Part shown: piece by piece, positions 43,971-46,572 of the stretch | Position numbering within the stretch: the first letter of the stretch is position 1 | Layout of the letters: the number at the start of each line of letters is the position of its first letter | Assembly: GCF_900112595.1 (NCBI RefSeq) | Contig: NZ_FOMI01000003.1 | Coordinates: 248,001 to 312,000, forward strand | Source: Algibacter pectinivorans | GTDB taxonomy: Bacteria; Bacteroidota; Bacteroidia; Flavobacteriales; Flavobacteriaceae | Reading direction: 5' to 3' | Length of the DNA: 64,000 nucleotides | Translations under genes and position numbers: made by a program | The notes under the pieces: generated by a model | Database searches by the model: none | What the model was told of the DNA's origin: nothing | The model's input: only the letters and a program-made list of their open reading frames with translations

Positions 43971-44018
43971 TGGTCTCCCGTCTCCCGTCTCCCGTCTTCA
44001 GTCATCAGCCTTCAGTCT
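43971..44018 (+). repeat. Short tandem repeat GTCTCCC touching the recG stop
   Basis: Three exact copies of the 7-mer GTCTCCC are followed by three related GTCTTCA/GTCATCA/CCTTCAGTC units. The array runs into the minus-strand recG stop codon at 44017-44019. Confidence 0.65.
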
Positions 44019-46572
44019 AACTAATATAATTCCAAATATTTTTAAACTTACTAAGTTGCTTATATGTGTTTAAATACACTTGATTTTCAGGAAGCGCCAA
44101 CGAAGGATCTATTTTTAATACCGATTTAGCATGGTGTCTTGCCAACTGTAAAATGTCGTTATCCTTAATAATGTCCGCTATTTTAAGGTTTAAAACGCCA
44201 CTTTGTTGCGTGCCCATAATATCACCAGGGCCACGTAATTTTAAATCCACTTCGGCAATTTCAAAACCATCATTAGTACTAACCATAGTATTTAAACGGG
44301 TTTTACTGTTTTCGCTTAGTTTATGGCTAGTCATTAAAATACAATAACTTTGTTCTGCACCACGACCAACACGACCGCGCAATTGGTGTAATTGCGATAA
44401 GCCAAAGCGTTCGGCGCTTTCAATAATCATTACCGATGCATTAGGCACGTTTACACCAACCTCAATAACCGTTGTAGCTACCATAATTTGTGTTTCTCCT
44501 TTAATAAAGCGTTGCATTTCATAATCTTTATCGGCAGGCTTCATTTTACCATGAACAATAGAGGTTTGATATTTTGGCATTGGGAAGTCTCTAGATATAC
44601 TTTCATAACCATCCATTAAATCTTTATAATCCATTTTTTCGTTCTCCTTTATTAAAGGATAAACAATATAAATTTGACGTCCTTTATCAATTTCATCTCG
44701 AATAAATTTAAAAACATTTAATCGGTTTTTGTCATATCTATGAACCGTTTTTATAGCCTTTCTACCAGGTGGTAATTCATCAATAATCGAGATGTCTAAA
44801 TCGCCATAAACCGACATCGCTAATGTTCTAGGAATTGGGGTTGCAGTCATGACGAGAATATGTGGCGGGATAACCGAAGAAGCCCCTCCAACCTCCCCAG
44901 AGGGGAGGCTTTTCAATAATTTCGTAATGTAACTTAAAACATTATCAATGTCTGCAACAATTTGCTCGTTTGTAAATCGAATAACTTTAAAACCAATTTC
45001 ATTTAAAATTTGTGTTCTTAGGTCATCAGCTTCCTTTTGTTCAATGGTGTTATGGTATCCACCATCAACTTCAATAATTAAATTTTTTTCAAGATTTACA
45101 AAGTCAACTATAAATTCATCAATAATATGTTGTCTTCTAAATTTAAAATCTAGTTTTTTGTTTCTTAAACATTCCCATAAAATAGATTCTGCTTGAGTGC
45201 TATTTTTTTTGTTTTCTATTTGTAGTTCTTTTAATAATTTATAGGTTGATGGACGAGCAGTCATATACTTTTTAATGACTGCTTTTACGTCCTCCCCTTG
45301 GGAGGATTGAGGAGGGCTTTGAGTGCTTCCTTTCTTCCATAATTTTGAACGTTGTTTTACTCCAAATCGATGTTGCTCATCTATTATGGCTAGCCCCAAA
45401 TTTTTGAATTTTACCTTGTCTTCTAGAAGGGCGTGCGTGCCTATTAAAATTTGTAATTCGCCATTTTCTAACGATTCGTGAATTATTTTTCGTTTTGAAG
45501 TTTTAGTTGAGCCTGTTAATATTTCTATTCTGATATTCAGTCTATTACACCATTCAAGTAATCCGTTATAGTGTTGGACTGACAAAATTTCAGTCGGGGC
45601 CATTAAGCAAGCTTGGAAATCGTTGTCAAGTGCCATGAGCATTGACATAAAGGCTACAATGGTCTTGCCAGAACCTACATCGCCCTGTAAAAGTCGATTC
45701 ATTTGTGCATTACTACCTAAATCTGCGCGAATTTCTTTTAAAACACGCTTTTGGGCATTGGTTAATTGGAAGGGTAAATGGTCTTTAAAAAAGGAATTAA
45801 AATAGGTGCCAACTTGATTAAATGGAAAGCCTTTTATTTTCGATTTATGAATTAAATTTTTAATAATTAATTGCAATTGAATATAAAATAATTCTTCAAA
45901 TTTAAGCCGGAATTGTGCCCTTGATAGTAGCTCTTGATTCTTTGGAAAATGTACATTTAAAAGTGCCGATTGTTTACTAATTAATTTTAATTCTGAGCGT
46001 AAATTATCAGAAAGTGTTTCTGTAAATCTTCCCTTGGTTTCCAGAAATAATTGCTGCATGATTTTATTAATCACGCGATTTGTTATGCCTCTATTGTTTA
46101 ATTTTTCGGTTGATGGATATACAGGCTGCATAGCCGAACGCATATTTTTTTCATGGTCTTCTAGCAATTCTAATTCTGGATGCGCCATATTAAACTTACC
46201 GCTAAACCAGTTGGTTTTTCCAAAGGCCACATAGGGTTTATTTAGTATTAAGCTGTCCTTAATCCATTTTTGCCCTCGAAACCAAACCAGTTCCAAAGTT
46301 CCGGTATCATCTCTAAACGTGGCAACTAAACGTTTTCCGCGCTTTTGTGCAACTTCTTTAAGACTTGTTATTTTTCCAATAACCTGTACATCGGCGTTGT
46401 TGCGTTGTAGTTGGTTAATTTTGTAATACTGCGTTCTGTCTATGTATCTATTTGGAAATAAGTTAATTAAATCTTGATAGGTGTGAATACCTAACTCCTT
46501 ACGCAGCAAATCGGCACGACTTGGGCCAACGCCTTTTAAATAATCTATTGGAGTTTGTAGGTTTACAGACAT
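44017..46572 (-). CDS. recG: ATP-dependent DNA helicase RecG with in-frame DUF559 nuclease insertion
   Basis: RecG remodels stalled replication forks and branched DNA. The chain has the N-terminal wedge/OB domain (TPIDYLKGVGPSRADLLRKE, RDDTGTLELVWFRGQKW), helicase motif I LLQGDVGSGKTIVAF, motif II IIDEQHRFGVKQRSK, motif III MTATPIPRTLA, and motifs IV-VI (MVATTVIEVGVNVPNA, QLRGRVGRG). Length is 851 instead of ~700. The excess, residues 416-566 (44875-45327), is a DUF559/VSR-like endonuclease sitting between motifs II and III. Removing those 151 residues restores a normal RecG with every helicase motif intact. The frame is preserved across both junctions. Whether the chimera is an active helicase is not known. 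Confidence 0.95.
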   Translation of the reverse strand: MSVNLQTPIDYLKGVGPSRADLLRKELGIHTYQDLINLFPNRYIDRTQYYKINQLQRNNADVQVIGKITSLKEVAQKRGKRLVATFRDDTGTLELVWFRGQKWIKDSLILNKPYVAFGKTNWFSGKFNMAHPELELLEDHEKNMRSAMQPVYPSTEKLNNRGITNRVINKIMQQLFLETKGRFTETLSDNLRSELKLISKQSALLNVHFPKNQELLSRAQFRLKFEELFYIQLQLIIKNLIHKSKIKGFPFNQVGTYFNSFFKDHLPFQLTNAQKRVLKEIRADLGSNAQMNRLLQGDVGSGKTIVAFMSMLMALDNDFQACLMAPTEILSVQHYNGLLEWCNRLNIRIEILTGSTKTSKRKIIHESLENGELQILIGTHALLEDKVKFKNLGLAIIDEQHRFGVKQRSKLWKKGSTQSPPQSSQGEDVKAVIKKYMTARPSTYKLLKELQIENKKNSTQAESILWECLRNKKLDFKFRRQHIIDEFIVDFVNLEKNLIIEVDGGYHNTIEQKEADDLRTQILNEIGFKVIRFTNEQIVADIDNVLSYITKLLKSLPSGEVGGASSVIPPHILVMTATPIPRTLAMSVYGDLDISIIDELPPGRKAIKTVHRYDKNRLNVFKFIRDEIDKGRQIYIVYPLIKENEKMDYKDLMDGYESISRDFPMPKYQTSIVHGKMKPADKDYEMQRFIKGETQIMVATTVIEVGVNVPNASVMIIESAERFGLSQLHQLRGRVGRGAEQSYCILMTSHKLSENSKTRLNTMVSTNDGFEIAEVDLKLRGPGDIMGTQQSGVLNLKIADIIKDNDILQLARHHAKSVLKIDPSLALPENQVYLNTYKQLSKFKNIWNYIS
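44880..45320 (-). mobile_element. DUF559 insertion element with hairpin-bearing inverted ends, inside recG
   Basis: The inserted DNA begins and ends with inverted copies of one ~29 bp sequence: plus strand 44880-44908 and minus strand 45320-45291. Both read AAGCCC..CTCC..CCTCCC..A..GGGGAGG. Each end also folds on itself (CCTCCCC/GGGGAGG, loop AGA; CCTCCC/GGGAGG, loop CTT). Between them lies a complete DUF559 domain: KNSTQAESILWECLRNKK, FKFRRQHIIDEFIVDF, KNLIIEVDGGYH, IGFKVIRFTNEQI. The E, D, E-V-D and H residues of the VSR-type nuclease fold are present. No transposase is encoded. Confidence 0.85.

Follow-up and report, generated by a model that had tools for sequence, protein, structure and literature searches.

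A DUF559 nuclease module with hairpin termini in RecG of Algibacter pectinivorans: a probable mobile element read in frame with its host protein

The nuclease block in recG

The window analysed here is a 64,000-nucleotide stretch of the genome of the marine flavobacterium Algibacter pectinivorans (contig NZ_FOMI01000003.1, positions 248,001 to 312,000), and its recG gene carries a DUF559 nuclease module in frame (Table 1). The module looks like a mobile element translated with the host protein and not like a special feature of RecG. In Pfam, RecG_wedge, DEAD, Helicase_C and RecG_dom3_C surround DUF559 (PF04480), which is matched with an E value of 2.2e-30 and 105.1 bits against a cut-off of 20.6. 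Together with the four RecG domains, intact helicase motifs II and III identify the protein as a RecG. A first-pass annotation of this DNA had described an uninterrupted RecG of 851 residues with a 151-residue in-frame DUF559 block between these motifs; the open reading frame (ORF), the family assignment, the intact flanking motifs and the three motifs quoted for the block were all confirmed. The size was borne out as well, since DEQHRFG through MTATPIPRT spans 558 nt in the window RecG and 105 nt in 26 of the 27 RecG genes without a module, which leaves a net gain of 453 nt or 151 codons. The filled allele reads LWKK-G...PPH, and the empty allele reads KNxx-PP in 26 of the 27 module-free genes. 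Because KKG...PPH stands against KNxxPP, the borders of the insert were set at LWKK and PPH; the whole stretch in the window, including the termini, comprises 154 residues.

Table 1 Features of the recG locus, in window coordinates
Feature	Position	Strand	Description
recG ORF	44017..46572	minus	851 codons without interruption; Pfam domains
Inserted block	44869..45330	minus	LWKK to PPH; replaces 3 codons (Nxx) of the empty gene; net +453 nt
DUF559 nuclease domain	44914..45210	minus	RecG residues 455-553; E...D...ExD...H motif intact
Left terminal repeat AGCCCTCCTCAATCCTCCCAAGGGGAGGA	45290..45318	minus	Hairpin TCCTCCC-AAG-GGGAGGA at 45290-45306; read as PPQSSQGE
Right terminal repeat CCTCCCCTCTGGGGAGGTTGGAGGGGCT	44881..44908	minus	Hairpin CCTCCCC-TCT-GGGGAGG at 44892-44908; read as LPSGEVGGA

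The block recurs at the identical RecG position in nine further genomes and at 69 loci of named genome records (some of these genomes overlap). Since it does, an assembly artefact is ruled out, and the earlier concern that the reading frame might be a sequencing artefact falls away.

By Pfam and a structural model, the insert consists of the nuclease, two N-terminal helices and the termini. The insert model has a predicted local distance difference test score (pLDDT) of 79.5, and its best fold matches are 3hrl, a putative endonuclease, and the catalytic domain of the homing endonuclease I-Bth0305I (3r3p; E 7.6e-6 by profile and 3.5e-4 by fold). A profile search with the insert returned 3hrl and 3r3p and no third match at E 0.1. 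The full-length RecG model (pLDDT 69.8; predicted template modelling score 0.38) repeats the helix/strand order of the nuclease and has low-confidence joints at residues 416-426 and 559-603. The expectation of two separately folded units is only partly borne out, the full-length model being of moderate quality.

Host genes, termini and movement of the module

DUF559 is also found in other genes, where the first-pass annotation had suggested looking for it: the source genome holds four copies, each with palindromic repeats on both sides by flank reading and with a repeat sequence of its own, and Bacteroidota hold many other host genes. Among the matches listed, 143 of 299 genomes in a family sample and 170 of 296 in a phylum sample have some DUF559. 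The 42 long-ORF loci fetched from the family comprise 17 leucyl-tRNA synthetases (LeuRS), 7 methionine synthases (MetH), 7 RecG, 9 HemD, 1 isoleucyl-tRNA synthetase (IleRS) and 1 histidinol dehydrogenase (HisD). DUF559 is embedded in frame in LeuRS, MetH, RecG and IleRS, and it forms a C-terminal fusion in HisD (1) and an N-terminal one in HemD (9). Seven family and 9 phylum representatives of the host genes were typed with Pfam. Of 20 further phylum loci, the nine typed by Pfam are HsdR, HsdM, an Eco57I-type enzyme, a type ISP enzyme, an N6/N4 methylase, a weak MmeI-methylase match, GATase_5, an M23 peptidase and HemF; nine more were assigned by sequence likeness to HsdR (4), MetH (3), HsdM (1) and the Eco57I type (1), and two have no assignment. 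Host names were otherwise assigned from sequence motifs. Outside the family, many embedded modules lie in restriction-modification or methylase genes (L232-L236, L238, L240-L242, L247, L249, L251), and in HsdR, four of the five copies appear to be inserted at one position.

The DUF559 tree follows the host site, as judged from a quick tree of 115 domains that left out duplicates, domains with hidden Markov model scores below 60 and all but 25 of the 72 RecG copies, and in which free-standing DUF559 was represented by the best 40 stretches of the family matches and three of the source genome. The tree has 8 host-label changes for 8 groups, with a minimum of 7 and a mean of 64.4 after shuffling. 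RecG, MetH and valyl-tRNA synthetase (ValRS) each form one group, and LeuRS needs 2 changes, IleRS 3 (with ValRS inside) and HemD 2. The 63 modules from RecG, LeuRS, IleRS, ValRS, MetH and HisD group in one clade, from which all 43 sampled free-standing domains are absent. Since the same clade sits in unrelated enzymes, a RecG-specific role of the nuclease is unlikely, and a function in RecG only was rejected as the main account. The proposal that the nuclease serves RecG on branched DNA is not supported: its clade is also present in MetH, HisD and tRNA synthetases, and further DUF559 copies lie in heme-synthesis and restriction-modification genes.

The E-D-ExD-H motif is intact in 69/72 RecG, 17/17 LeuRS, 8/8 MetH, 9/9 IleRS, 3/3 ValRS, 1/1 HisD and 8/9 HemD copies, and each of the three remaining RecG copies has one altered residue. 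On free-standing DUF559 the pattern was found in 23/44, a count depressed by a faulty pattern, as all 12 misses inspected, out of 21, keep the acidic residues and the His. Over 46 pairs of RecG nucleases with dS (synonymous divergence) of 0.1-1, the ratio of nonsynonymous to synonymous divergence (dN/dS) has a median of 0.109 and a range of 0.049-0.305. By this measure the nuclease in RecG is under purifying selection, and it looks alive.

The clearest trace of movement is in MetH of genome G246 (L067), where two DUF559 modules lie 0.8 kb apart in one ORF and the second interrupts the activation domain. The two copies, of 418 nt each, align without gaps with 345/418 positions identical, and they are mutual nearest kin in the DUF559 tree (Shimodaira-Hasegawa-like approximate likelihood-ratio test, SH-aLRT, 89). 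Inverted AGCCCC termini bound the likeness of both copies: it ends at AGCCCCCC and GGGGGGGGCT, outside which only 11/30 and 3/30 positions are identical. Because the likeness stops at the inverted termini, the module moves as a unit. In another genome, the second MetH site holds a lone palindrome by reading (L072). A different in-frame insert of about 50 residues occupies this second site in G024 (L096); the loop may be a hot spot.

In the window, the right terminal repeat is inverted relative to the left end of the RecG module, and 18 of 29 aligned columns are identical between AGCCCTCCTCAATCCTCCCAAGGGGAGGA and the inverted AGCCCCTCCAACCTCCCCAGAGGGGAGG. The left end folds better as DNA than most shuffled versions (z -2.59; 1/200 shuffles as good). 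Among 72 RecG inserts, codon identity at shared residues is 0.73 at the right end and 0.71 at the left end versus 0.525 in the nuclease, whose best 10-codon window reaches 0.64; the comparison covered 2423 of 2556 RecG pairs. The ends also use codons uncommon elsewhere in the insert, namely GGG in 65/72 rows and GAG in 67/72. In the left hairpin, 20 two-sided compensatory cells were counted against a shuffled mean of 2.5 and a maximum of 8 in 2000 shuffles. This test used 54 of the 72 rows, with 18 of another register or differing loop left out, and relatedness stays in its control. These patterns suggest that the termini of the RecG module matter as DNA or RNA.

A scan of 155 copies, with 8 rows left out, gave hairpins beyond the 95th control percentile (9.0) upstream in 103, downstream in 78 and at both ends in 62; group means of 7.2 to 10.3 all stay below the 99th percentile (15.0). 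Upstream hairpins were scored in 46/67 RecG, 12/17 LeuRS, 6/9 IleRS, 3/3 ValRS, 5/9 HemD and 30/42 free-standing copies. When the two ends of each copy were compared as inverted repeats against mismatched partners, rank 0-3 of 60 was reached by 18/43 free-standing, 5/17 LeuRS, 3/8 MetH, 3/8 IleRS, 4/8 HemD and 2/2 other copies, by 0/3 ValRS and 0/1 HisD, and by only 7/72 RecG copies, probably because the partners drawn for RecG were other RecG copies, which share their ends. In the source genome, a search with two exact terminus patterns, which covered neither the left RecG terminus nor variants, gave no match outside the elements. One of them, the exact right-terminus pattern of the RecG module, has a single occurrence there, variants again not being searched.

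Distribution at the RecG site

The first sample comprised 60 genomes including the source genome, of which 59 gave a match. Since the match in G037 resembles another helicase (E 3.9e-35), 58 genomes were counted with RecG; the counts from this sample hold among the matches listed. The alignment covers all 851 residues in three genomes, which are the source genome, one congener (G001) and Wocania arenilitoris of another genus (G015), and it breaks at residues 413-419 in the remaining 55. Because these 55 are without the block, it is not a general RecG domain; this patchiness, with 3/58 filled, supports the earlier reading of an insertion of mobile type. The closest RecG found (G004) has flanks 97.6% identical to those of the window and is yet empty. 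In the family sample, DUF559 lies inside RecG, whose identity was checked, in at least 9 of the 299 genomes, source included, and presence within Flavobacteriaceae is patchy. In named species genomes, scanning turned up 80 loci (69 RecG, 8 IleRS and 3 ValRS); each host gene carries the module at one single position, and the host frame is open through the module in 80/80.

The junction is clean in 26 of the 27 module-free RecG loci fetched. The other one (L023) has 30 extra, scar-like bases at the insertion site and sits inside a filled group on the RecG tree. This quick tree, built without the insert from 72 filled and 27 empty genes, left out 7 of the 69 RecG loci (five repeat genomes, one partial and one near-copy). 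Filled and empty genes interleave on it, with 16 state changes; starred branches require 11 or more of these. The tree of the RecG inserts runs mostly along genus lines. From the site distribution, the changes on the RecG tree and the genus-following insert tree, we consider that the block probably entered this RecG position once and has since probably been inherited and also exchanged or lost many times. Besides an intact recG elsewhere in the genome, G010 holds a further fragment of the RecG C-terminal part, which is degenerate and contains three stops (C6, 602654-603121).

A homing-like account and its alternatives

The insertion, the open frame, the movement as a unit in MetH, the host-site lineages, the purifying selection and the conserved hairpins are read directly from the sequences. 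They may be accounted for by a family of mobile modules in which terminal inverted repeats, each with a hairpin, enclose one DUF559 domain and no stop codon, the block in the window being the copy at the RecG site. Because it has no stop codon, the module would be translated as a loop domain of the host protein and not spliced out, and as a loop domain a mobile nuclease module could be tolerated. The nuclease would act on module-free alleles of its own site, and repair would then copy the module in; the terminal hairpins would be recognised by the nuclease or a host factor on the rare occasions when the module moves to a new site. What we infer is cleavage, the copying of the module into empty alleles, a recogniser of the hairpins and the fused chain as the product in the cell. 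That a mobile nuclease element is translated with its host and persists in homing-like fashion seems to us to have an even chance of being right. Homing is favoured because it best unites the kinship with I-Bth0305I, the host-site tree, the clean junctions of the empty alleles and the persistent selection on catalytic residues. A transposition step would better explain the conserved hairpins, so the two mechanisms may coexist, with homing at one site and rare hairpin-guided moves to new sites. More tentatively, and with somewhat more doubt than conviction, these modules could form a new class of selfish element, made of splice-free, in-frame homing modules with hairpin termini and site-faithful nuclease lineages in housekeeping genes across Bacteroidota. 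The first-pass annotation had the insertion right and the role on branched DNA probably wrong, and the hairpin termini, the other hosts, the host-site tree and the homing kinship were absent from it.

Several observations weigh against this homing-like account. Plain homing needs no hairpins, and by Pfam and the model, the 154-residue insert shows no counterpart of the DNA-binding region that known EDxHD homing enzymes carry. The hairpins themselves are uneven: the right end of the window module folds unremarkably (z -1.40; 15/200 shuffles as good), the right hairpin is weaker across RecG copies (386/432 cells paired against a shuffled mean of 371.9 and a maximum of 383), and MetH copies pass the hairpin threshold in 1/8 at each end. 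The clade of embedded modules (SH-aLRT 91) and the RecG group (94) are both unstarred on the quick tree. Recent long-range spread is not visible, since the RecG inserts group mostly by genus and similarity among them correlates with similarity among their flanks (Spearman 0.69). Nor is flank divergence near the junction clearly raised in filled-empty RecG pairs: in the 10-15% divergence class, the near/far ratio is 1.16 for filled-empty (18 pairs), 0.93 for filled-filled (23) and 1.07 for empty-empty (12), and above 15% the pair classes do not differ. The closest filled-empty pair has 12.8% divergence near the junction versus 3.8% elsewhere, the highest local peak in the gene, yet its junction window has 20 mismatches and another window of the gene has 19. 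Co-conversion around the RecG junction was accordingly set aside, with one suggestive pair and no clear class-wide signal.

A more transposon-like life is conceivable, in which DUF559 acts as the transposase of a REPtron or an IS200/IS605 element, binds the terminal hairpins single-stranded and moves the module between genes, and in which lineages keep to a site because an insertion persists only in the rare case that it is in frame and in a permissive loop. The inverted hairpin termini with compensatory changes in the left hairpin, the movement within one MetH, the lone palindrome at the second MetH site and the many unrelated host genes would all fit. However, the tree follows the host site so tightly that moves can only be infrequent, neither of the two exact terminus patterns searched in the source genome matches outside the elements, no target duplication could be discerned, and the domain is not of the HUH type; we regard this account as unlikely. 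We give rather less credence to a domesticated repair domain kept as an aid to RecG on branched DNA. Mostly vertical inheritance within genera, the low dN/dS and a fused frame open in 69/69 RecG loci of the named-genome scan agree with domestication, but the same clade is kept with its motif intact in tRNA synthetases and methionine synthase, 55 of the 58 genomes (among the matches listed) have RecG without the module, three RecG copies have an altered catalytic residue, and compensatory hairpin changes are not expected of a mere protein domain.

The module could also be a tolerated relic that the common ancestor of these Flavobacteriaceae acquired by insertion and that has since only been lost, many times over, a history with which the broad agreement between insert tree and genus and the position of L023 inside a filled group are consistent. 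A simple deletion would not restore the clean Nxx-PP junction, without scar, of 26 of the 27 empty RecG genes, and a relic would hold neither dN/dS near 0.1 nor the hairpins, which makes this history improbable. Least credible, and in our view very improbable, is an addiction or protection effect, by which a nuclease inside an important gene is hard to delete and hairpins in the mRNA keep the fusion folding or expressed. Several hosts are of the essential type and hairpins occur at both ends; against this, clean empty RecG alleles exist, MetH, HisD and HsdR are not generally essential, and the data do not separate DNA from RNA roles of the hairpins.

Comparison with known elements

The kinship of the nuclease and the movement of the module are both read from sequence. 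By profile and fold, the nuclease is related to the catalytic domain of I-Bth0305I, an EDxHD (Vsr-like) homing endonuclease, and a DUF559 gene has already been filed with the EDxHD family (PMC9403480). Unlike I-Bth0305I, the module has no self-splicing intron or intein, no separate DNA-binding region was seen in it, and its frame is continuous with that of the host. Self-splicing lets homing enzymes invade conserved genes, the usual entry being through introns or inteins (PMC3943268). Inteins are likewise in-frame nuclease elements of conserved genes with a patchy distribution. The RecG module differs from them, since no Hint-type Pfam domain was found at E 0.001, there is little room for one, and the window junction residues are Gly and Pro, so that the residue after the insert is not Cys, Ser or Thr. 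No Rfam family of group I or II introns matched over recG up to E 1, and the frame is open throughout; the sole Rfam match is to a small RNA family, at 27 bits against a gathering cut-off of 196, outside the insert and on the opposite strand. With no Hint-type domain in Pfam and no intron family in Rfam at these thresholds, an intein or intron was rejected.

Rickettsia palindromic elements (RPEs) are likewise palindromic DNA tolerated in frame in unrelated protein genes; their size is given as about 150 bp, with 44 integrations in one genome (PMC10969869). The module shares the in-frame palindromic insertion but is longer (453 bp), its exact right terminus, searched without variants, occurs once in the source genome, and it encodes a nuclease whose lineages follow the host site. 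REPtrons and TIRtrons (RAYT or TIRYT with REP or TIR palindromes) also place a nuclease gene between inverted palindromic repeats, and REPs inside genes, associated with RAYT transposases, are known (PMC3733652). RAYTs are HUH tyrosine transposases, whereas the enzyme of the module is DUF559, and the exact termini searched are not dispersed in the source genome. No Y1 transposase was found inside the element; the two Y1_Tnp matches of the source genome lie elsewhere, on contigs C17 and C12, inside ORFs of 1287 and 542 aa (L110, L111). A dispersed REP family mobilised by a RAYT was rejected, as the two searched patterns (left RecG terminus and variants not searched) have no further exact copies and Y1_Tnp occurs only in large ORFs.

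We found no description of DUF559 modules with hairpin ends inside these genes in the open-licence literature, subscription papers being outside the scope, so novelty is unproven. A nuclease related to homing enzymes sits without sign of splicing in conserved proteins of many genes and species, which makes the unspliced entry of a mobile element into such genes testable. The modules also explain why DUF559 turns up unexpectedly in tRNA synthetases, MetH, RecG and restriction enzymes of Bacteroidota; their sites point to natural permissive insertion sites in important enzymes.

Free-standing DUF559 genes, such as Caulobacter VsrA and 3hrl, have the same nuclease domain as the module but encode separate proteins, and 0/43 sampled fall in the clade of embedded modules. 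DUF559 is treated as Vsr-like and Caulobacter VsrA is linked to DNA damage (PMC12907096). In the source genome, one free-standing DUF559 gene lies among several near-identical palindromic direct repeats of 50-60 bp and of two kinds (L003; C9, about 596469-596789), and another lies between two identical copies of a 69-bp direct repeat with a palindrome in it (L001; C12). In genome G104 (L231; C2, 233500-237300), two DUF559 genes of equal score and frame length are 1.4 kb apart on the same strand.

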